In this document: in pieces, positions 12,286-55,452 of the stretch
Numbering within the stretch: the stretch's first letter is position 1
How the letters are laid out: each line of letters opens with the position of its first letter
NCBI GenBank assembly: GCA_002733805.1
Contig: NVXG01000035.1
Location: 1 to 64,000, forward strand
Length of the DNA: 64,000 bases
Source of the DNA: Robiginitomaculum sp.
GTDB taxonomy: Bacteria; Pseudomonadota; Alphaproteobacteria; Caulobacterales; Maricaulaceae
Direction: 5' to 3'
Made by a program: the position numbers and the translations under genes
Notes under the pieces: generated by a model
Told to the model about the DNA's origin: nothing
What the model saw: the letters and a program-made list of their open reading frames with translations, nothing else
Databases searched by the model: none

Positions 12286-12782
12286 TATACGTATTCCCAA
12301 TGTATTACTTTTGAATCGAAGTCGGTGGATGACACGTGTTTGATATGAAACCCATTCGCGTTTGAGTACGCTATATTTTGCCTAACCACACCGTTTTCTA
12401 ATTTAACTTTACATAACACTATTAAAACATCTAGCGGAACTACAGGTTTATTATTTGCATACTCAACCCAGCTATATACCTTACCGACCCCCGCGAGGCA
12501 CTCCAATTCAGGTACGGGTTCGAATGCGTCCTCTGCCATCATGTTAAGTTCGCATTGCGCACAGGCAATGATTTCCATTAATACTTTTTTAGCGGAATGG
12601 CCTTTGCTCGTAAACCGTAATGCCTTTTTAACAATGTGTTCTAACATGTGGTTGCCGAGCTTATACGTTTTAAATATTCGAGCCGGATCAATCCGAAGAT
12701 TAACAAAACCTTGTTCGCACTCATCTTTTGTTAGCGGTCGTTTCCATTCAACGTTGTAGTGTTTGCTCACGTCATCAGTCAT
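12285..12782 (-). CDS. Conserved hypothetical phage protein
   Basis: 165 residues. The N-terminal two thirds are helical (WKRPLTKDECEQGF, LGNHMLEHIVKKALRF, VLMEIIACAQCELNMM). The last ~50 residues are beta-like and end HVSSTDFDSKVIHWEYV, a layout reminiscent of DUF551-type C-termini. I do not know its function. It is translationally coupled to thymidylate synthase downstream and overlaps the XRE gene upstream by 8 bp. Confidence 0.6.
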   Translation of the reverse strand: MTDDVSKHYNVEWKRPLTKDECEQGFVNLRIDPARIFKTYKLGNHMLEHIVKKALRFTSKGHSAKKVLMEIIACAQCELNMMAEDAFEPVPELECLAGVGKVYSWVEYANNKPVVPLDVLIVLCKVKLENGVVRQNIAYSNANGFHIKHVSSTDFDSKVIHWEYV

Positions 12783-13035
12783 CTTCGTATAAACCCTTTT
12801 TTCTAGACAATGTTATATTTGTTTCAAATCCCAATTCGCGGCGGATTCTAATTAATCGATCCAATGTAAATTTTTCGTGTATTTCCCGTTGTATTAATGA
12901 TATTTCACTTTGCGTTAAAACATCACATTCCTTCGCAATATCTTTTTGTGTATCACCAAGCTTATTCATTTCAATTCGAATTGATTTAACCACCTGGTTT
13001 TTCAACCGATTGATTGTTTTATTTCCTGTATTCAT
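12775..13035 (-). CDS. XRE-family (HTH_37-like) DNA-binding protein
   Basis: 86 residues. A helix-turn-helix is seen as TQKDIAKECDVLTQSEISLIQ followed by KFTLDRLIRIRRELGFE, the layout of HigA-like XRE proteins of the HTH_37 type. No toxin gene is adjacent, so an addiction role is unlikely; a transcription regulator is more probable. It overlaps both neighbours by a few bases in the leftward operon. Confidence 0.7.
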   Translation of the reverse strand: MNTGNKTINRLKNQVVKSIRIEMNKLGDTQKDIAKECDVLTQSEISLIQREIHEKFTLDRLIRIRRELGFETNITLSRKKGLYEDD

Positions 13036-13619: not shown

Positions 13620-15299
13620 CTAACCCAAGTAAGCCGCTAAGGCGTCGTTAAACGAGCACTCATCATCTGTTTGAATTCCAGGTAAATTCTTAACATCAAC
13701 CCCACGGTCGACCCATTCCTGATGCTTGTCCCCTAGAACGTCCTGCATGACCCCACGTTTGCGAACCATTGAATCCAGTATTTGGGAATCCATAGAGTCG
13801 ATGGTTTCAAAATCGACATAGACCACGTTTTTATTTTGTCCGATGCGGTGCGCCCGATCTTCGCTTTGCAAACGATGTTCTAGGTTGAACGAGTTGGAAT
13901 AATACAAAACGTATTCCGCAGCCGTAAGCGTTATACCTATTCCCGCCGCCGCTTGGTTAGCAATGAAGAAACGAACCTTGGATTTTTTCGGCCAAAACTT
14001 TGTAGGGTCGTTTGGATCTCGTTCGATGTCCTGAAAAGAATCCACGGCGATTTGACGGTCTTCTTTGTCAGTTTTACCGTAGTAAGATACAACGGACTCT
14101 TTACCGAAAACCTCCGATACTTTTTCAACAATCATTTCTAGTTCGGCAGTGAAGCGAGACCAGATAATAACTTTTGCATCGTCGTGGATGTCGTCGAGAT
14201 ATTCCAACACCGATTTAATTCGGTTGTTGGTGCCTTCGAGTTCCATCATCTCAACGTTTTCTATTTGTTCGATCATTGGGCCGATTTCGGTCTCGTGAGT
14301 GATTTCTGTTATCCCTGTCGTAACAGGAACAAACCCCCCGAGTATTTGCTGTAACCGAACGATACGAACGATAGCCGCTTTTGCTGTAATCTCACCGGCT
14401 GCCAATTCAACCTTAAGATTTTCATCCATCCCTTTGTATAAACGCTTTTGTTCTGCGGACATTGTTAATTTTCTAGTAACAAAAATCTTTTCGGGTAAAT
14501 CCAAACAATCCCGTTTTAATACACGGGTGGAACACCCTGATATTTTACGGCGTAATTCATCTAAGTTTTTATAACTGTCGAGTACGTCGTATTCCTGGTT
14601 TGTGTTGTGGTTGTATTCCCTGTGGAATTCCCCGTAGTGATGTTTAAATGAGTGGAACGAGGGGAAGTATAAAATACCTGGATCTAAAAATTTATATTGC
14701 GAATATAAATCGAATGGGGATTGTGGGTTAGGTGTACCAGAAAGTATGGCGCGGTAATTCGACGCTTTACTTAACGCTAACGTGTTCTTTGTTATCTTTG
14801 CCCCTGGTGTTTTTATCCGTGAACTTTCGTCAACGATATGAAAACAACGGAACGAGTTAAGGAATTTTTTAGCGAGCTTATACGCCTTTCCGGTGACAGG
14901 TTGTTGGAGTGCTTCCACGTTCATCGACAGCACACGTAAACCAAAAACGTCAGGATCAAATAAACGTTCGATAGCTTCGCGTTGTTTTTTCTTAGGAGTA
15001 GACCCCTCCCAAGTTGCTGTGATTTGCATAGATGAGATAATGGGGCAGTGGATGGGGAACTCGTTATAGATCCAATTCCGGTGTACCCCGTTGGGTGCCT
15101 CAATAAAAACGGCATCAATCAAACCCTTACCGTAAAGATACGCTGCTTTGTCGATAGTGACCTTTGATTTCCCTGTTCCCTGTTCCATAAGATAAGCCCA
15201 AAATATGGCGTCTCTGCTTTCAAGAAAACAATCGTGTTGGTGCTGATAAGGTTCTGTTTTATAAACGTGATCTTCACACGTTAGTTCTTTTTTACTCAT
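13620..15299 (-). CDS. SNF2-type DNA helicase/translocase (SF2)
   Basis: 559 residues. Walker A is EQGTGKS (about 39-45), motif II is the variant DESS (157-160) followed by RIKT, motif III SGTPNP, and motif VI EDRAHRIGQ near 470. The order and the RAHRIGQ box are diagnostic of SNF2-like ATPases. It likely translocates on double-stranded DNA in replication or recombination. First gene of the leftward operon, reading out of the 15.3-15.7 kb control region. A weak hairpin follows in the 66-bp gap to the holin gene. Confidence 0.88.
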   Translation of the reverse strand: MSKKELTCEDHVYKTEPYQHQHDCFLESRDAIFWAYLMEQGTGKSKVTIDKAAYLYGKGLIDAVFIEAPNGVHRNWIYNEFPIHCPIISSMQITATWEGSTPKKKQREAIERLFDPDVFGLRVLSMNVEALQQPVTGKAYKLAKKFLNSFRCFHIVDESSRIKTPGAKITKNTLALSKASNYRAILSGTPNPQSPFDLYSQYKFLDPGILYFPSFHSFKHHYGEFHREYNHNTNQEYDVLDSYKNLDELRRKISGCSTRVLKRDCLDLPEKIFVTRKLTMSAEQKRLYKGMDENLKVELAAGEITAKAAIVRIVRLQQILGGFVPVTTGITEITHETEIGPMIEQIENVEMMELEGTNNRIKSVLEYLDDIHDDAKVIIWSRFTAELEMIVEKVSEVFGKESVVSYYGKTDKEDRQIAVDSFQDIERDPNDPTKFWPKKSKVRFFIANQAAAGIGITLTAAEYVLYYSNSFNLEHRLQSEDRAHRIGQNKNVVYVDFETIDSMDSQILDSMVRKRGVMQDVLGDKHQEWVDRGVDVKNLPGIQTDDECSFNDALAAYLG

Positions 15300-15379
15300 G
15301 TCTTACGTTGCCCGTTCTAAGTAGTTTCTGAGTTACCTATATTACCAAATAGTGATAATGGGCGCTAGCACACAAAAAG

Positions 15380-15408
15380 TTGACCTTTTAACGAAGGTGG
15401 TGTATTTA
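15380..15408 (+). promoter_or_regulatory. Sigma70-like promoter for the early rightward region
   Basis: TTGACC (15380-15385), 17-bp spacer, TATTTA (15403-15408). It lies in the 410-bp gene-free divergent region 15300-15709, 31 bp ahead of the 56-bp repeat. The leftward side holds an ATATTA (-10-like on the minus strand, 15339-15344) next to a TATCACTATTTGG-like site, but no matching -35. Confidence 0.6.
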
Positions 15409-15430
15409 CACACGCATTACGAGGATTAAA

Positions 15431-15605
15431 TATAATGTTGGAAAAACATTTTAAAATGTGCTATCACGTCAGGCGTCGACTAGGGTACATATTCCAAAAT
15501 GATTTAAAAAATATTCCTTAATTCAATTATCAAAAATTTGCCTCTTAATGGGTGCGTGAATACAGAAAGAAACCACCTTTGTAAAGAACTAACGTAACCT
15601 TTGTA
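15431..15605. repeat. Duplicated control element, copy 1 (56-bp perfect core 15439-15494)
   Basis: The core 15439-15494 is identical over 56 bases to 52952-53007. A TATAAT box (15431-15436) lies 2 bp upstream of the core, so a transcript could start within it. The core contains the 14-bp palindrome ACATTTTAAAATGT (15446-15459) and ends with GGGTACATATTC. ATGTGC and GTACAT inside it can pair (one G-U), and CTA/TAG inside them. Similarity to copy 2 continues, diverged, to about 15600 (for example CAATTATCAAAAAT). Function unknown: a leader RNA or a protein-binding element. Confidence 0.85.
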
Positions 15606-15623
15606 ACAATCGTAAATTAGGGG

Positions 15624-15651
15624 TTGCGCCGGTTAATGTTCCACGTATACT
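15624..15651 (+). promoter_or_regulatory. Sigma70-like promoter before the first early gene
   Basis: TTGCGC (15624-15629), 16-bp spacer, TATACT (15646-15651). The transcript would start near AGAAACCTAG, a decamer repeated at 15653-15662 and 15677-15686 and akin to the AGAAACGA leaders further on. The first gene begins at 15710 without a clear Shine-Dalgarno site. Confidence 0.55.
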
Positions 15652-15709
15652 TAGAAACCTAGCAACACAGAACACAAGAAACCTAGAAATCAAAATAAGC
15701 GAATTACAT

Positions 15710-16024
15710 ATGACAGTATTTATTGTTCAAGAACCAACCCGACAGGTGGCTGGTGTTCCCCGTCCTTCAATGGATCTATCACCCGCGCAAGAGTTCGGAG
15801 AGTTAGAGTTTATGCTACCTCCAGGGCCGGTAATGTTTAATCCTGTTCCTATGAAGGCACGACTTAAGGCCTCATTATCCAAGTTTTCAGATGACGATTA
15901 CCTTATGTGTATTGGTGACCCCACCGCTATGGTTTGGGCCGGTATCTACGCTGCCCAGGCGAATCATAACAACGTTAAAATGCTAAAATGGAATCGTTCC
16001 ACGCGGAAATACGTTATAGTATAG
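15710..16024 (+). CDS. Conserved early phage protein
   Basis: 104 residues: MDLSPAQEFGELEFMLPPGP, then KASLSKFSDDDYLMCIGDP and a C-terminal VKMLKWNRSTRKYVIV. This pattern recurs as a small early protein at the head of replication regions in pseudomonad-type siphophages, without known function. No membrane span or HTH is seen. Only a weak RBS. The next gene follows after 9 bp. Confidence 0.65.
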   Translation: MTVFIVQEPTRQVAGVPRPSMDLSPAQEFGELEFMLPPGPVMFNPVPMKARLKASLSKFSDDDYLMCIGDPTAMVWAGIYAAQANHNNVKMLKWNRSTRKYVIV

Positions 16025-16033
16025 GGGTAGGTT

Positions 16034-16579
16034 ATGATCGATTTTGAGGGTGATGCGGAAGAAACACAGCATATTGCCACACAAAAAGAGCTTAGCGCGG
16101 TATCTGATCTAACCGCTGAGCTACACACTATACAAGCCAGAATTGCCCGAGGTAGGGAAATATTGGCAGAATTAGAGAAAGCAGAGACCAAAATTCTCTG
16201 TGATTTACTCCCCGCCTCAATGAAAGAAGCAAACCTAAAAGCCTTTGAGATGCCCAATGGTATGGGAATTAGCGTCACTGATCACGTAGTGACCAGTATT
16301 AAGAAGGCAGATAAACCCGTTGCTTACGCTTGGTTAGGTAAAAACGGTTATGGATCTTTAGTCAAAACCAAATACACAATCGATTTTGGAATGGGCGAAC
16401 TCGAAAGAGCTGGCGAATTACAAAAGTTTCTAGATAAGGAAGGTTTTGATTATGGTAGTAAGCAGGACGTCCACGCAGGAACCTTGAAAAAGTTCGGTAA
16501 GGATGCTTTAGCCGCTGGTCTAGTGATGCCAGAACAAATCAAAATCACCACATTTCCTAAAGCTGAAATAAAAAAGTGA
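16034..16579 (+). CDS. Conserved early phage protein with coiled coil
   Basis: 181 residues. Residues ~18-60 form a coil (ELHTIQARIARGREILAELE); the rest is alpha/beta with AYAWLGKNGYGSLVKTKYTI and a helical tail. It is cotranscribed with the next gene and the primase, so a replication role is likely but unproven. RBS: GGGGTAGGTTATG. Confidence 0.6.
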   Translation: MIDFEGDAEETQHIATQKELSAVSDLTAELHTIQARIARGREILAELEKAETKILCDLLPASMKEANLKAFEMPNGMGISVTDHVVTSIKKADKPVAYAWLGKNGYGSLVKTKYTIDFGMGELERAGELQKFLDKEGFDYGSKQDVHAGTLKKFGKDALAAGLVMPEQIKITTFPKAEIKK

Positions 16580-24468: not shown

Positions 24469-26480
24469 ATGGTATTTTTTGGGATGGTCACGGGAACGGT
24501 AAAAAGAAGCGGGCGGATTTTAGACCGTTGGCACCGATACCAAAAACAGGATGGGTAAAGCCGAGCGGCTACCCTGATTTGTCCTCTGCTAATATTATAT
24601 CAATCGACATAGAAACCCGTGATCCTGATTTAAAAACCATGGGTAGCAGTGTGCGACGTGATGGTTATATAGCAGGGGTTGCCGTTGGTACCGATGACGG
24701 TTTTCGTTCGTACTACCCGATTGCTCATGAAGTTGGTGGTATTATGTCACCGCACAACATGCCCGCGAAGTTCGTTTTCAAATGGTTGAGCCGTGAGCTT
24801 GGTAGAAAAGAACAGTTTAAAATCGGGGCCAACCTTCTGTATGATTTGGAATATTTGGAACACGCCGGTGTTACTTGGTGCGGTCAGATTATTGATGTTC
24901 AGATTGCAGAACCTTTGATTGATGAAAATAACTTTTCATACGCCCTCGACCGCATCGCGAATAAGTATTTGGGAGAATCAAAAGAAGACGAAGCGTTACA
25001 CAAATGGGCGGCCCAAAGTTACGGCGGTAAGCCCACGCGAACAGACCAGGCTAGAAACTATTGGAGGTGCCCACCAGAATTGGTTGGCCCTTATGCTATA
25101 TCTGACATTGATTTGCCCCTGCGTATTTGGGAACATCAAAAAATGATTATCAAACAACAGAACCTTGAAAACGTGTTTGATATGGAATCCCGATTAATGC
25201 CTATGCTGTTAAAGATGAAACAGAAAGGCGTACGGGTTGACCCTAAAATGGTAAAGAAATTAGGGCAGGAATGGCGAGAAGAACGGGGTATTTTAGTTCG
25301 TAACCTTTCTAAGTTCGTTAACATCCGAGAAGAATTTAATGCCGATGATAAAGGCCACTTAAAACTACTTTGGGATAAACAAGATTTACCCGTTGTAAAA
25401 ACAAAGAAAGGACAGCAATCATTCGCGGCAGCCGTTATTGATGCTAGCAACGACCCCTTTGTTAATAAAGTTAAACGTATTCGACAGCTTACAAAATCGA
25501 TAGGGACGTATGTAGATGGATACTTCGGAAAACACGTTATTAATGGCAGGATACACTGCCAATTTAATCAGCTTCGTTCAGATGACGGCGGCACGGTCTC
25601 AGGCCGATTTTCCTCATCCCAACCGAATTTACAAAATGTCACTAGCCGAGGGGAATTCTCAGTTTTGCGTGAAGCCTTTTTGCCAGAACCTGGTCAAAGG
25701 TGGTGGAAGCTCGATTACTCATCTATCGAGCCAAGATTATGCGCGCATTACGGAAGCGGCCCAAGTGCCGACGCCCTACGGGCATTGTATAAAAAGAATC
25801 CCAAGACTGACTTTTATTTGATTGCGGCAGACGCGGCGAATATTGAACGACCGCCCGCAAAAGTCGTTGCCTTGGCTGACATGTACGGGCGTGGTTTGGC
25901 TAGCATGGCATTAGCGTTAGGTATCACTGAAAAAGAAGCTGAACGTATTAAGGATTTAATGCACAAAGCGAACCCATTTATTCCCGCATTAGCAAAGGCT
26001 GCCAGCAACCGAGCAAAGCAACGTGGTTATATCACTATGCTTTCGGGTCGTCGACGTCGTTTTGACCGTTGGTCACCGAAAAACTGGGACATACGCAAAA
26101 AGTACGAAGATAAAAACGGTTACGGTTCAGCTACCCGCGATAGTGAAGAGGAAATACTTGCCGAATTTGGGTGTTCAGCACAACGCGTAGAGACGCACAA
26201 GGCGCTTAATTCCATCCTACAAGGGGGTAGTGCCGACTTAATCAAGAAAGCCATGGTAGAGTCATTTGAGGCGGGTGTGTACGACGAAATTGGAGTACCT
26301 CAGTTAACGGTACACGATGAACTAGATTTATCAGCAGACCCCGAAAACCCCGCACACGTGGAAGCAATATTCGAAGCCAAAAATCATATGGAAACCTCGT
26401 ATGACCTTGGCGTATTCCCCCTGGTAGATGTCGAGATGGGGCCAAACTGGAAGCAGGTAGAAGACTATGAACGTAATTAA
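24462..26480 (+). CDS. DNA polymerase I family (family A) with 3'-5' exonuclease
   Basis: 672 residues. The 3'-5' exonuclease ExoI motif is SIDIETRDP (DxE at 49-51). Polymerase motif A is KLDYSSIEPRLCAHY (~416), motif B lies in the KVVALADMYGRGLASMAL helix and motif C is VHDEL (~616). No N-terminal 5'-3' nuclease domain, as in many phage enzymes. The replicative polymerase of the phage, encoded in an overlapping cluster with clamp and primase. Confidence 0.95.
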   Translation: MLDGIFWDGHGNGKKKRADFRPLAPIPKTGWVKPSGYPDLSSANIISIDIETRDPDLKTMGSSVRRDGYIAGVAVGTDDGFRSYYPIAHEVGGIMSPHNMPAKFVFKWLSRELGRKEQFKIGANLLYDLEYLEHAGVTWCGQIIDVQIAEPLIDENNFSYALDRIANKYLGESKEDEALHKWAAQSYGGKPTRTDQARNYWRCPPELVGPYAISDIDLPLRIWEHQKMIIKQQNLENVFDMESRLMPMLLKMKQKGVRVDPKMVKKLGQEWREERGILVRNLSKFVNIREEFNADDKGHLKLLWDKQDLPVVKTKKGQQSFAAAVIDASNDPFVNKVKRIRQLTKSIGTYVDGYFGKHVINGRIHCQFNQLRSDDGGTVSGRFSSSQPNLQNVTSRGEFSVLREAFLPEPGQRWWKLDYSSIEPRLCAHYGSGPSADALRALYKKNPKTDFYLIAADAANIERPPAKVVALADMYGRGLASMALALGITEKEAERIKDLMHKANPFIPALAKAASNRAKQRGYITMLSGRRRRFDRWSPKNWDIRKKYEDKNGYGSATRDSEEEILAEFGCSAQRVETHKALNSILQGGSADLIKKAMVESFEAGVYDEIGVPQLTVHDELDLSADPENPAHVEAIFEAKNHMETSYDLGVFPLVDVEMGPNWKQVEDYERN

Positions 26481-26769
26481 AGTTAATTCCCCCTTTGAAG
26501 TGGGTCGTACTGATATAGAAGAGATAGCGGACTTAACAACCCGCGCCCACCTTATGCTCAATATTCGAGACGTAATTGATCATAACAAGTGGTCACAAAA
26601 ACAGGCGGCGACTGTTTTGAGAACAACACAGCCCCGCATTAGCTCACTTAAAAATGGGGAAGCTTCTGAATTCTCAGTAGGAATGTTAATTACCTTTTTA
26701 GTTAGACTTGGTTATACCTCTGAAGTAACCTCATCAAAAGATAAAATACAATTGGAATTAAAGAAATGA
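26467..26769 (+). CDS. XRE-family (HTH_37-like) regulator
   Basis: 100 residues. HTH at KWSQKQAATVLRTTQPRISS, then LKNGEASEFSVGMLITFLVRL, the same layout as the 12775-13035 protein. No toxin gene adjacent. It overlaps the polymerase end by 14 bp and the next gene by 4 bp. Probably a phage transcription factor. Confidence 0.75.
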   Translation: MNVIKVNSPFEVGRTDIEEIADLTTRAHLMLNIRDVIDHNKWSQKQAATVLRTTQPRISSLKNGEASEFSVGMLITFLVRLGYTSEVTSSKDKIQLELKK

Positions 26770-42502: not shown

Positions 42503-42533
42503 ATTCCTTATTTGTCGCATAGGAGTGACTTAA

Positions 42534-43884: not shown

Positions 43885-44030
43885 GTCAACCTAAAACAAG
43901 CACCCAAAGGTCGGCAGTAAGGGCCGAAGCTCAAAAGGCGTTAGGTCGTGTTCCTCGCCAAGTTTGGGCCGCACCAGAAGAACACGAGCGCGTCAAATTG
44001 TTCCTTATCGGGCTTCGTAAAACGCTTTAA
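43881..44030 (+). CDS. Small basic protein
   Basis: 49 residues from ATG 43881 (ATGA overlap; an in-frame upstream start at 43791 is internal). QKALGRVPRQVWAAPEEHER resembles small phage proteins that bind nucleic acid, but this is uncertain. Confidence 0.5.
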   Translation: MSQPKTSTQRSAVRAEAQKALGRVPRQVWAAPEEHERVKLFLIGLRKTL

Positions 44031-45420: not shown

Positions 45421-45448
45421 TTGTATTAATCAAACAGTTTGATATAAT
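45421..45448 (+). promoter_or_regulatory. Promoter of the TTGTATTAATC class, copy 1
   Basis: TTGTAT (45421-45426), 16-bp spacer, TATAAT (45443-45448). An inverted repeat ATCAAA-CAG-TTTGAT (45429-45443) overlaps it. The 39 bases from 45421 match 47586 onward with only two differences. The leader carries three (A)GAAAC copies. Confidence 0.8.
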
Positions 45449-45493
45449 GATTGTGTTGAAACAGAAACCCAGAAACGAAATAGAGAAACGATT

Positions 45494-46850: not shown

Positions 46851-46975
46851 CTATACCTACTTGGTTGTTTATTGGTGCCATGGTAACTTTTACCATTTTC
46901 AATCTTATTTTTGGATTCGATTTACACAGTACTTTAGGTCAACTTAAGGAGAGTGCACAATGTTACCCAGAATAG
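46847..46975 (+). CDS. Small membrane protein (GTG start)
   Basis: 42 residues from GTG 46847, which overlaps the preceding TGA. One hydrophobic helix (WLFIGAMVTFTIFNLIFG). It covers the AAGGAG RBS of the next gene. Coupling supports it, but it is short. Confidence 0.4.
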   Translation: MTIPTWLFIGAMVTFTIFNLIFGFDLHSTLGQLKESAQCYPE

Positions 46976-47346
46976 AAATAACAGATGGTATTTTGTCAGC
47001 AACAATAAAAATGTCCAATGGTGATACCTCCGCCGTTTTGGCGATGACGAGAATGGTCGCCAAATCGGAAGAGATCGACCCTGATAACGTCCTTGGTGGT
47101 ATTGGTGCCATCATGCACCTGGACTCCTTCGAGATCTACGGGGAAGCTATAGGGCACCTTTACCAAAAGACGTGTGGGGGTGATATACGGCGTCTCCTGC
47201 TAATTATCCGTACCTGCCAGCTAGGACATATGTCGGTTGGTTTATTGCAGGGTTTATCTTTAGGTACCCACGAACTCGACGAGGGACATTGGGCGCTGTA
47301 CGAAGCCAACGTACTTAAGGATTTACCAGGTTTTCAAAAGAAATGA
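46960..47346 (+). CDS. Hypothetical protein
   Basis: 128 residues: SATIKMSNGDTSAVLAMTRM, GAIMHLDSFEIYGEAIGHLY, GLSLGTHELDEGHWALYEAN. Helical. RBS AAGGAGAGTGCACA. Unknown. Confidence 0.55.
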   Translation: MLPRIEITDGILSATIKMSNGDTSAVLAMTRMVAKSEEIDPDNVLGGIGAIMHLDSFEIYGEAIGHLYQKTCGGDIRRLLLIIRTCQLGHMSVGLLQGLSLGTHELDEGHWALYEANVLKDLPGFQKK

Positions 47347-47585: not shown

Positions 47586-47613
47586 TTGTATTAATCAAAC
47601 AGTTTTATATAAT
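47586..47613 (+). promoter_or_regulatory. Promoter of the TTGTATTAATC class, copy 2
   Basis: TTGTAT (47586-47591), 16-bp spacer, TATAAT (47608-47613), nearly identical to the 45421 promoter. The right half of the inverted repeat is changed (TTTTAT for TTTGAT). Leader with AACAGAAACGAAATAGAGAA, also shared. Confidence 0.8.
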
Positions 47614-47657
47614 GCTTGTGTTGAGAGAGTAAACAGAAACGAAATAGAGAAACGGTT

Positions 47658-52667: not shown

Positions 52668-52715
52668 CTTATAACCTCATCAGGGTTTATCATTACGAAA
52701 GGGTAAAAATCCCAG

Positions 52716-52739
52716 GGCGGGTAATGAATCCGCCTTTTT
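52716..52739 (+). terminator. Intrinsic terminator in the late control region
   Basis: A 7-bp stem (GGCGGGT/ATCCGCC with one G-T pair), AATGA loop, then TTTTT. It would stop rightward transcripts before the late control element. The gene-free stretch 52668-53194 (527 bp) also holds a degenerate ATCACTAACTAGA-TATAGA site (52832-52850) without a -35, the 56-bp repeat and a palindrome. Confidence 0.65.
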
Positions 52740-52943
52740 GGCCGCTAAACCTAGGGAACCAATTAGATTAAAGGATGGCGTGGTGTTTTGCAATAAGTAT
52801 TTGAGAAATGTATTTTTGGTCAATTCGGGCAATCACTAACTAGATATAGAGGATTAGGGGCAAAAAGGGTTCTAGGCTTAGTGGGGTATGGGTTACAGAG
52901 GTTTTTGGCTGAATATGCGGAAATGTTTTCTAAGAGGGTAAAT

Positions 52944-53098
52944 TATAATAATGGAAAAACATTTTAAAATGTGCTATCACGTCAGGCGTCGACTAGGGTA
53001 CATATTCAAAATAGTTATAAAAAATAAACTTAAATCAATTATCAAAAATCACCCTCTATATGCGTGTGTAAGTACACCACTTTGTAACTTCTGTAAAC
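52944..53098. repeat. Duplicated control element, copy 2 (56-bp perfect core 52952-53007)
   Basis: Core 52952-53007 is identical to 15439-15494. A TATAAT box (52944-52949) is again 2 bp upstream, with no -35 hexamer, which suggests an activated or phage-modified promoter. Downstream similarity to copy 1 (CAATTATCAAAAAT, then CCTCT and CACTTTGTAA-like blocks) continues to about 53090. It leads to the packaging and head genes. Confidence 0.85.
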
Positions 53099-53108
53099 CC
53101 CTAAAAGG

Positions 53109-53125
53109 TTAGTTAGGCTAACTAA
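53109..53125. promoter_or_regulatory. 17-bp perfect dyad before terS
   Basis: TTAGTTAG-G-CTAACTAA, two 8-bp arms around one base. It is absent from copy 1 of the duplicated control region. It could be an operator or part of a packaging site next to the terminase gene. Confidence 0.5.
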
Positions 53126-53171
53126 TTGAAAATGTGACTCCCACTGTAGGTTTCCGTACAATGGTGCCATG

Positions 53172-53232
53172 GGCGCGATGCCCTAACCGGCGCGATGCCA
53201 AACATTTTTAAAATTAACCGAGTGCGTGACGC
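53172..53232 (+). repeat. GCGYGATGC repeats around the terS start
   Basis: GCGCGATGC at 53173 and 53190, and GCGTGACGC at 53224: spacings 17 and 34 bp. Two are in the longer form GGCGCGATGCC. The second contains the ATG of terS. The same motif occurs before the scaffold and capsid genes. Confidence 0.65.
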
Positions 53233-53878
53233 CATGGCTGATTATACCCCGATTGACTTCCTTTCTGACGACCCCGACATTCCCACTTTGAAAGATTTAG
53301 AGTTCATCGATGAACTACTTTCGAACGGCAATCACAAAAACAAAGCAGCTATCAAAGTCTACGGATGTGAAACAGATAACATAGCGTCGACTATCGCACA
53401 TAAGATTTTACTTAAACCTGCCGTGGGAAAAATTTACAATCGTAGGATGAACGATAAGGTTCGTGCGAGCGGAATTTCTATGGACTGGATCGAAGGTCAA
53501 TTGGAAGATATAGCGACCACAACGATACAAGATTATTACGATGAAAATGGAAAACAAATTCCTATCCATAAACTTTCTGAAAAAGCGGCGGGCGGTGTAA
53601 GTTCGGTTGAAATTGAATACGTCGATAACATGCGACGAGAGAAATTAAAAACTTATGATCGTTCTGGTGCATTAAAAACTTTAGCGTCAATCCGTAAACC
53701 AATTGCGCAACACAAAATGGAAATTACAGGGAAGGATGGAAAACCAATTAACGTTGAAGTTTCTGGTGGTGTACTTGCGTTACCTTCTGCAACCAACACC
53801 GAAGGGTGGGCGGATGATGCGTCAGAGTCACAAGACGCTGTCCTAGCAGTCGCAAACGAAGGATACGAAAACGAATGA
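53195..53878 (+). CDS. terS: Terminase small subunit
   Basis: 227 residues. LLSNGNHKNKAAIKVYGCET, then HKILLKPAVGKIYNRRMND, the helical N-terminal DNA-binding pattern of terminase_2-like small subunits, with an ITGKDGKPINVEV motif in the C-terminal region. It recognises the packaging site and recruits TerL. No Shine-Dalgarno precedes ATG 53195; ATG 53234 (MADYT) is a possible alternative. ATGA overlap with terL. Confidence 0.8.
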   Translation: MPNIFKINRVRDAMADYTPIDFLSDDPDIPTLKDLEFIDELLSNGNHKNKAAIKVYGCETDNIASTIAHKILLKPAVGKIYNRRMNDKVRASGISMDWIEGQLEDIATTTIQDYYDENGKQIPIHKLSEKAAGGVSSVEIEYVDNMRREKLKTYDRSGALKTLASIRKPIAQHKMEITGKDGKPINVEVSGGVLALPSATNTEGWADDASESQDAVLAVANEGYENE

Positions 53879-55452
53879 GTATCGAACTAACCAGCGCAAT
53901 AATTGAACCTGAGTTTAATTACAAAGAACATTTCACTCCTGTTAAATCCCCGTTCGCGCAATTCGATTTGGATTATTCTAAACCGTATGAACACGACCAT
54001 AAAAAATACCCAATCGTTTGGCAGCCTCAACCTGGTTCTCAAACTCTTGCAATCACTTGCCCGTTTACGGAAATACTTTACCAAGGTGCTCGTGGCCCTG
54101 GTAAAACTGATTGGATTCTTATGCGTTATGCTATGCGTGTTGGTTTGGGTTTTGGCCCGTACTGGACAGGTATTATTTTCCGACGTGAGTACAAAGAATT
54201 AAACGATATAATTAAAAAATCAAAACGTTGGTTCCCTCGAATATTTCCAGGTGCAAGATTTCTTCGTTCAGCATCAGAATTAAAATGGGTGTTCCCTGAT
54301 GGTGAAGAATTATTATTCCGTTTAATAAAAACCGAAGAAGACTATTGGAACTATCACGGGCACGAATACCCGTTCATTGGATTCGAGGAGCTTTGTACAT
54401 GGCCATCACCTGATTGCTATGACGTGATGTTTTCCTGTAATCGATCCGGTTACCTTCCACCCGAGGGTCAGGCACCCATACCATTGGAGGTTGTATCTAC
54501 TGCAAATCCATATGGTGTTGGTCATAACTGGGTTAAGTCTCGTTTCATCGACAAGGCGAAACCAGGCCGCCCATTTCTCGCTGACTCCAATCGTGTGGCC
54601 GTTCACATCTTCGGACATCCAACCGAGAACCGATTTCTAGATCCGCAATATCTGGACACCATTCGAAACATCAAAGATCCAAACAAACATGCTGCGTGGT
54701 GGCGTGGATCTTGGGACATTACGGCGGGTGGAATGTTCGACGAATTTTGGCGCTCAGATATCCACAAAGTTGAGCCTTTTAAGATTCCTGGGGGCTGGGA
54801 AGTGTATAGGGCGTTCGATTGGGGGTCTAGCAAGCCATTTAGCGTAGGCTGGTGGGCCGTTAGTGATGGTAGCAATGTCAACGCCTATGGTAGGACGTTT
54901 AAGACCATACGCGGCGATCTATACAGAATTGGGGAATTCTACGGATGTACAGGAAAACCCAATGAGGGCCTTAGATTGACCTCGGGTAAGGTCGCCCAAC
55001 TCGGATTGGAACGAGAAGAACGGCTGATGCAACGCTATGGCATCAATGAAATATTGCCAGGGCCTGCGGATTCATCCATTTATACGCTTGAGGATGGCAA
55101 CTGTATTGGGGACAATATGGAAGCTGAGGGGATGTACTTTGTTCCCGCAAATAAGTCCAAAGGGTCACGAAAAAATGGTTGGGAACTCATTAGAAACCTT
55201 CTCGAAGCGGCCATACCCATCCAAGCAAAGGACGATGATGGCAACGTGATACAGGGCGAGTTTCTTCCACGCGATAAACCATCGTGTTATATTTTCGACA
55301 CTTGCACCGACTTTTTGCGAACAATTCCAACCCTTCCACGTGACTCCACCGACATGGATGATGTGAATACAGAGGCAGAAGATCATATTGCAGACGAGTT
55401 CAGATACATGGCACTTCACCAATTTGGTAACTTTACACAAGAGGAATTTTAA
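53875..55452 (+). CDS. terL: Terminase large subunit
   Basis: 525 residues. Walker A GARGPGKT (71-78), Walker B YPFIGFEE (~168), and a RNase-H-like nuclease with AFDWGSSKPF (Asp ~315) and a C-terminal DHIADEFRYM acid cluster. ATP-driven DNA packaging motor at the portal. Full length for the family. Confidence 0.95.
   Translation: MSIELTSAIIEPEFNYKEHFTPVKSPFAQFDLDYSKPYEHDHKKYPIVWQPQPGSQTLAITCPFTEILYQGARGPGKTDWILMRYAMRVGLGFGPYWTGIIFRREYKELNDIIKKSKRWFPRIFPGARFLRSASELKWVFPDGEELLFRLIKTEEDYWNYHGHEYPFIGFEELCTWPSPDCYDVMFSCNRSGYLPPEGQAPIPLEVVSTANPYGVGHNWVKSRFIDKAKPGRPFLADSNRVAVHIFGHPTENRFLDPQYLDTIRNIKDPNKHAAWWRGSWDITAGGMFDEFWRSDIHKVEPFKIPGGWEVYRAFDWGSSKPFSVGWWAVSDGSNVNAYGRTFKTIRGDLYRIGEFYGCTGKPNEGLRLTSGKVAQLGLEREERLMQRYGINEILPGPADSSIYTLEDGNCIGDNMEAEGMYFVPANKSKGSRKNGWELIRNLLEAAIPIQAKDDDGNVIQGEFLPRDKPSCYIFDTCTDFLRTIPTLPRDSTDMDDVNTEAEDHIADEFRYMALHQFGNFTQEEF

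Follow-up and report, generated by a model that had tools for sequence, protein, structure and literature searches.

Two intergenic regions share a 56-bp core

The DNA analysed here (the window) comprises the first 64,000 bases of a phage contig of 71,463 bp. It contains two large rightward gene units, which we designate early and late from gene content alone, and each is headed by a long intergenic gap. The early head (15300–15709, 410 bp) lies between a leftward unit headed by a DNA helicase gene (phrog_62; 13620–15299, minus strand) and a rightward unit that begins with a Pam3_gp32-like gene (15710–16024, plus strand) and includes gp33- and gp34-like genes as well as those of a primase, a UvrD-type helicase, a clamp, and PolA. 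The late head (52668–53194, 527 bp) separates a leftward 178-aa ORF from the genes of the terminase small subunit (terS; 53195–53878, plus strand) and large subunit (terL; 53875–55452, plus strand). Two helix-turn-helix (HTH) genes are located elsewhere in the window (26467–26769 and 12775–13035).

Each head includes the same 56-bp core on the plus strand, at 15439–15494 (copy 1) and 52952–53007 (copy 2). The two copies are identical over all 56 positions and mismatch at the next base on both sides, compared with 38–70% identity in the flanks; in ungapped comparison, the identity falls off sharply to 16/30 and 23/60 upstream and 14/20 downstream. A 43-bp part of the core, with 3 mismatches allowed, had no match in 100 shuffles, and a chance origin of the repeat is excluded. 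The core sits in the longest of the 9 reported direct-repeat families of the window (105 nt at 86%), and an overlapping 70-nt family that runs from the core end onward is 73% alike between copies. Exactly 2 copies of the core are present in the whole 3.7-Mb assembly, in which no 16S gene and 2 rpoB-type matches were found, so that the bin looks mixed.

A first-pass annotation of this DNA had described a perfect repeat with these ends, a TATAAT hexamer two bases upstream of both copies, and a position ahead of the two large rightward units. All three descriptions are borne out, the last by the gene context (a replication unit and a late unit with terS and terL).

Organization of the two heads

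Both copies are built in the same order, that is, a TATAAT hexamer (15431–15436 and 52944–52949), a 2-bp spacer, the 56-bp core (which includes a 14-bp palindrome), and an AT-rich tract of 45–46 bp with an A+T content of 85% in one copy and 87% in the other. Ranked by 50-bp windows over the contig, the tract behind core 1 (15489–15539) is second in low stability and that behind core 2 (52999–53049) is first. The observation on this AT-rich element is one of low duplex stability, not of unwinding as such. The core has no tandem direct repeats. The palindrome, ACATTTTAAAATGT, occupies residues 15446–15459 of copy 1 and 52959–52972 of copy 2, and the core ends can pair, with one G-U pair included; both features had been noted before. 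The palindrome would provide each copy with a candidate operator near the promoter.

In copy 1, the hexamer is part of a promoter-like site on the plus strand, TACACA-18-TATAAT (15407–15436, 10/12 matches; 1 site found against 1.6 expected in shuffles). A −35 hexamer at a distance of 16–18 bp was not found in copy 2, which has the TATAAT only (best −35 match 1/6). A further promoter-like site, GTGACT-17-TACAAT (53134–53162, plus strand, 9/12), is located between core 2 and terS, in a stretch with 2 such sites against 1.5 expected in shuffles. The counts of promoter-like sites in the heads are not above those of shuffled sequence. Convergent promoters seen by eye in the arms described below were dropped, as their −10 hexamers are poor and they are absent from the scan list.

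Inverted arms that agree at 83% over 24 nt flank copy 1, namely a left arm TATTTACACACGCATTACGAGG (15403–15424, plus strand) and its inverted relative on the right (15541–15562, minus strand). Copy 2 retains the right arm, which reads TACTTACACACGCATATAGAGG on the minus strand (53053–53074). The best inverted 20-mer match is 16/20 in each head, a score that was reached by 10 of 300 random stretches, and the arms taken alone are weak evidence. Exactly two places in the window carry a 16-bp box, TGTGTAANTACACCAC: one to the left of copy 1 (15397–15412, minus strand, TGTGTAAATACACCAC, which contains GTGTANNTACAC) and one to the right of copy 2 and on the opposite strand (53065–53080, plus strand, TGTGTAAGTACACCAC). 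Within the window, exact GTGTANNTACAC is confined to the two heads. Flanking boxes of the broader ACCTYTGTAA type number 4 in the heads and were rejected as evidence; the pattern had been taken from the heads themselves, and in a blind test 28 of 300 random pairs did as well as the window heads, so the enrichment is not significant. The corresponding counts were 17/300 for YuA, 20/300 for Bhz59, 262/300 for MW2, and 0/300 for PaMx11, the last being dominated by a CAG-type simple repeat.

Relatives of the phage and of its heads

By protein, the window phage stands apart. The best matches of its TerL in the phage collection are of the Vibrio ALK and Seurat types (up to 51%), and those of its gp34 are Luteibacter Pluto and Pbunavirus-like phages (38% or less). 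Among the phages compared, its gene order is closest to that of the Mesyanzhinovviridae. MW2, YuA, PaMx11, and Bhz59 have relatives of the window helicase (32–34%), gp32, gp33, gp34, PolA, TerL (46–48%), and tail protein, and in all four the helicase, gp32, gp33, and gp34 relatives are adjacent in that order. Sonora has relatives of the helicase, gp32, gp34, PolA, and TerL, and gp33 and the tail protein were not found in it. The helicase is the first gene of the unit in these five phages, whereas it is divergent from the unit in the window. Seurat has relatives of only TerL (51%) and the clamp among 11 window proteins tested. A same-family assembly (G077) contains 7 gp34-like genes on contigs C2, C10, C26, C30, C67, C92, and C97, 6 of which also carry a helicase relative, as if several related phages had been binned together.

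The core sequence was found in none of these relatives. Residues 15380–15720 had no match in the phage collection at an E-value of 1e-5, pattern scans of IMG/VR viral contigs with a 26-mer and a 19-mer of the core had none, the relative loci compared and the G077 contigs yielded chance-level pieces only, and the nearest relative of the late unit (L003) is without the core. The layout does recur. In all 9 Mesyanzhinovviridae phages compared, the early head resembles the late head of the same genome; these represent about five lineages, two of them weak, since CN1, CN2, FP1, and MW2 hardly differ from one another in this region, and the same holds for YuA and LKO4. The exact head-to-head runs are 55–69 bp in the four Bordetella phages (CN1, 69; CN2, 69; MW2, 62; FP1, 55), 30 bp in YuA, and 28 bp in LKO4. 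In MW2, the strongest self-repeat of the genome (140 bp at 82%) joins the pre-helicase gap to the pre-terS gap. The Sonora heads match over 110 bp at 72%, and those of Bhz59 and PaMx11 have short matches only (24 and 25 bp, and 28 bp at 93%, respectively), with stronger repeats elsewhere in both genomes.

The heads of MW2, YuA, and the others, in GenBank records with no named element at these places, are in the same positions before helicase/gp32/gp33/gp34 and before terS, and in the same orientation, as those of the window, but their sequences are unrelated. The block common to the two MW2 heads has three direct repeats of 9 bp with an AT-rich stretch behind them, and the two YuA heads have an identical 30-bp run of repeats ahead of AT tracts that differ in letters. 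The repeat units of both phages, AAGTAAGTT, are not shared by the window phage, which has its 56-bp core in place of 9-bp direct repeats. The YuA record annotates a promoter in both heads, each of "medium activity (1000 MU)", and the repeat block begins 86 and 85 nt past the annotated −10. The window element is best regarded as one local form of a layout with two heads that a group of phages has in common, written in different letters.

Conservation in relatives was part of the test that the first-pass annotation had set for its own proposal; the sequence was found in no relative, and it is the layout that recurs. The annotation had also inferred strong selection on the 56 bp. Such selection is not separable from gene conversion, because a single genome carries the core sequence.

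No head-to-head repeat was found in IMG/VR record G163 (9 kb compared with 4.5 kb and with a locus of 13 kb) or in Seurat, whose single listed self-repeat is not at the terS head; in Pluto, which has another gene order, none of the listed self-repeats joins the terL gap to another head. Of Vibrio ALK and the best tblastn matches of PolA and gp34 (Klebsiella, Variovorax, Luteibacter, and others), the comparison of heads covered Pluto. In the terS head of L003, inverted arms (846–865 and 1090–1109; 90% over 20 nt) bracket 224 bp and partly resemble the window arms; their match of 18/20 is above the best score, 16, of 300 stretches drawn at random from the window. A profile of the window arms had its best match in the 9.4 kb of L003 within the terS head at all three profile lengths, and a second match in that head ranked 2 with the 18-bp profile and 3 with the 14- and 22-bp profiles. 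As the two matches lie on one strand, the minus strand, the inverted layout is not reproduced by the profile itself; the resemblance is suggestive only.

Four relative loci (L054, 19624–19950; L047, 21237–21551; L051, 42116–42445; and L050, 1222–1563) encode a "repressor" near the primase with HTH-type family matches at its N- and C-terminal parts, as a tandem-HTH protein would have. It is a candidate binder of the repeated boxes. No counterpart of it turned up at the corresponding position of the window, nor did the HTH gene that adjoins the phrog_2165 gene in relatives, and neither of the two window HTH genes gave a BLASTP alignment with YuA gp25.

Duplex stability and GC skew

Duplex stability was ranked over whole genomes in non-overlapping windows by nearest-neighbour values, with widths of 50 and 100 bp tried first, together. 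At 50 bp, the two least stable windows of the window contig, MW2, YuA, Bhz59, and PaMx11 lie one in each head, beside the repeat. The heads of Sonora, which was ranked after the pattern had been noticed, again hold ranks 1 and 2, which makes 6 of 6 whole genomes at this width. When the width is set to 40, 60, 80, or 100 bp, the heads of MW2, YuA, and PaMx11 keep ranks 1 and 2, and the respective ranks are 1/3, 1/2, 1/4, and 1/2 for Bhz59; 1/2, 1/4, 1/4, and 1/4 for Sonora; and 1/3, 1/3, 4/16, and 3/14 for the window phage. The rank result is width-dependent, and it is weakened most for the window phage at the other widths. Part of the low stability is expected because intergenic gaps are generally AT-rich; if one intergenic window in ten falls in each head, the chance is about 0.02 per genome, which is a rough estimate and not a computed control.

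Lower ranks were obtained elsewhere. The late head of L003 ranks only 4 within 9.4 kb, in three partial G077 contigs the gap at the helicase takes ranks 29, 51, and 8, one tested gap in the first 32 kb of RDJL1 (heads not identified) ranks 49, and of two gaps tested in Pluto, one ranks 7 and the other is outside the first 150. The terS head of Seurat is absent from its ten least stable windows. In PaMx28, a partial record with a different gene order and 100 N, the least stable window is at the terS head (L074, 1–51) and the second elsewhere (16134–16184, ahead of the major head gene in a gap of 560 bp). As a separate observation, the three least stable 50-bp windows of Seurat fall in one gap (L077, about 46880–47050) beside a leftward unit, far from terS; this gap is possibly a single origin or control site.

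The maximum of the detrended cumulative GC skew of the window contig is at 52,997, inside copy 2. The minimum is 18 kb from either head, so that copy 1 has no skew turn. In the other five genomes, both extremes are 0.9–16 kb from the heads, and none is at a head.

A possible role in DNA opening

According to the available text of a study of the siphovirus SPP1 (PMC6316719), this phage has two origins, oriL and oriR, each with direct repeats and an AT-rich unwinding element; the repeats are bound by gp38, and oriL lies within gene 38. The window phage likewise has two copies of a candidate binding region beside an AT-rich element in one siphovirus genome. It differs from what is described there in that both window copies head operons and no initiator has been identified. 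By analogy with oriL and oriR, an identical core next to a tract that is alike in composition only, an arrangement also seen in YuA, would have the look of a protein-binding site beside an unwinding element.

We tentatively interpret the two copies as a module that acts at the DNA level and opens the head of each unit, replication and late, with origin-like firing that is probably coupled to promoters; we put this at somewhat less than an even chance. A phage DNA-binding protein would bind the 56-bp core and help melt the adjoining AT tract, and melting would let replication start at both heads, probably in coupling with the neighbouring promoter. The core would be kept letter by letter because it is a binding site, and the tract mainly by composition because ease of melting alone would matter. 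We infer both the existence of this protein and the step from DNA that opens easily to DNA at which replication starts. The first-pass annotation had offered an origin-like element or a regulator site as options, and the duplex-stability ranking adds support to these. Its broader description, that of an element controlling the early and late units from their heads, finds support in the position, in the counterparts in nine phages, and in the YuA promoter annotations. As a whole, its interpretation is borne out in part. The identity of the core, the A+T content and low stability of the tracts, the heads of the related phages, and the skew maximum inside copy 2 count in favor of the opening module.

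Several results stand against an origin. The window core is without the tandem direct repeats expected from SPP1, no initiator gene was identified, no skew extreme lies at the heads in 5 of 6 genomes or at copy 1 in the window, the low-stability rank depends on width, and L003 and the G077 contigs rank low. G163 lacks the head-to-head repeat, and Seurat, which is closer by TerL and has no helicase–gp34 genes, has neither the repeat nor a low-stability terS head. Moreover, SPP1 has AT islands at its transcriptional control regions as well (PMC6316719). The two copies may instead form a shared transcription switch, a promoter and operator through which one phage regulator would control both units, with the AT tract aiding promoter melting or marking promoter DNA and with no replication role; we regard this as possible and hold it with slightly less confidence than origin-like firing, from which the present data do not separate it. 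Both copies lie in the same orientation between a divergent leftward gene and the first rightward gene, and this position, the orientation, and the TATAAT are explained as well by a switch as by an origin. The palindrome in each core, the exact 16-bp box near each, the 10/12 site of copy 1, the HTH genes of the window, and the YuA promoters, each with its repeat block at a similar distance, would all fit such a switch. By contrast, the missing −35 of copy 2, promoter-like counts at the level of shuffles, and the non-significant flank boxes speak against it, and a switch alone leaves the least-stable status of both tracts in six genomes unexplained.

The remaining readings concern RNA, protein, or no function at all. 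The put sites of phage HK022 and the nut sites of lambda are short elements that recur where two transcription units begin, and they act as RNA through defined hairpins. An antitermination or processing signal of this type at the start of both transcripts would account for the shared position and orientation, for a core that makes up the first ~50 transcribed bases behind the TATAAT, and for its pairable ends. The window element is likewise repeated at two unit starts, but it has no RNA-structure signal: among seven pieces folded against shuffles, the five of the plus strand folded no better than shuffles (z of −0.63, −0.87, +0.46, +0.41, and −0.85), and on the minus strand z was −2.58 for copy 2 and +0.15 for copy 1. 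With no Rfam match at gathering scores, and with an MW2/YuA counterpart that is a simple repeat and looks unstructured by sequence alone, we consider an RNA leader improbable, and the structured transcript leader suggested earlier finds no support. The earlier description of the element as untranslated is not established, because a 28-codon ORF (15435–15521, plus strand) and a 53-codon ORF (52951–53112, plus strand) span the core in one frame. They have 19 codons in common, an in-frame ATG in both copies, and GAGG upstream, and may be read as a duplicated small gene or leader peptide; their codon scores (−0.09 and −0.02 per codon) exceed the shadow-frame mean of −0.41 but are below those of all 9 small genes compared (0.025–0.182). 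Differences outside the core are even across codon positions (11, 12, and 11 of 35), the frame of copy 1 is broken by a 1-nt gap, and no significant protein relative was found (best PHROGs E-value 0.079; no tblastn match in phages). The codon statistics and the difference pattern do not favor a protein, and we rate a small gene as the least probable of all these readings. Scarcely more probable is that two older, related heads recently underwent duplication or gene conversion, which left 56 bp without special function; this reading draws on the presence of the sequence in one genome only, which leaves it inseparable from selection, whereas the relatives carry their own repeat at the same two places.

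Going back to the opening module, a stronger form would have one phage protein bind both copies of a sequence that varies by lineage along with the protein itself, open the weakest DNA at both heads, and tie the start of replication to late transcription, as a paired origin–promoter switch common to the group. We consider this form rather unlikely as it stands. In the literature covered, neither replication start sites nor the timing of replication relative to late transcription were found for YuA-like phages. A search by title and abstract start gave no description of twin heads among the matches listed, and we do not claim novelty. The available text of a Mesyanzhinovviridae paper (PMC11946847) is without the words "promoter", "intergenic", and "leader", and that of a Vojvodinavirus paper (PMC8471281) without "promoter", "intergenic", and "repeat". 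Paired elements that are fixed in place, free in sequence, and located on the two weakest spots of a genome offer two exact, testable coordinates per phage, and the layout could help to forecast where uncultivated relatives have their control regions or origins.

Other repeated elements

A hairpin of the GGCGGG..CCCGCC type, close to CCTAGG, was seen by eye in the leftward part of the late head both in the window (52700–52760) and in L003 (about 730–790), and is possibly a conserved leader of the leftward gene. A promoter-like unit, TTGTAT-16-TATAAT, is duplicated at 45421–45467 and 47586–47632. A 15-bp palindrome, ATCAAACAGTTTGAT, lies between the hexamers and overlaps them, and it is imperfect in the second unit; behind these units, a ribosome-site stretch is also duplicated (45470 and 47634). 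Repeated stretches of ribosome site and start codon occur among small early genes of the window at 42510, 42744, and 44516, and at 44012 and 44965.
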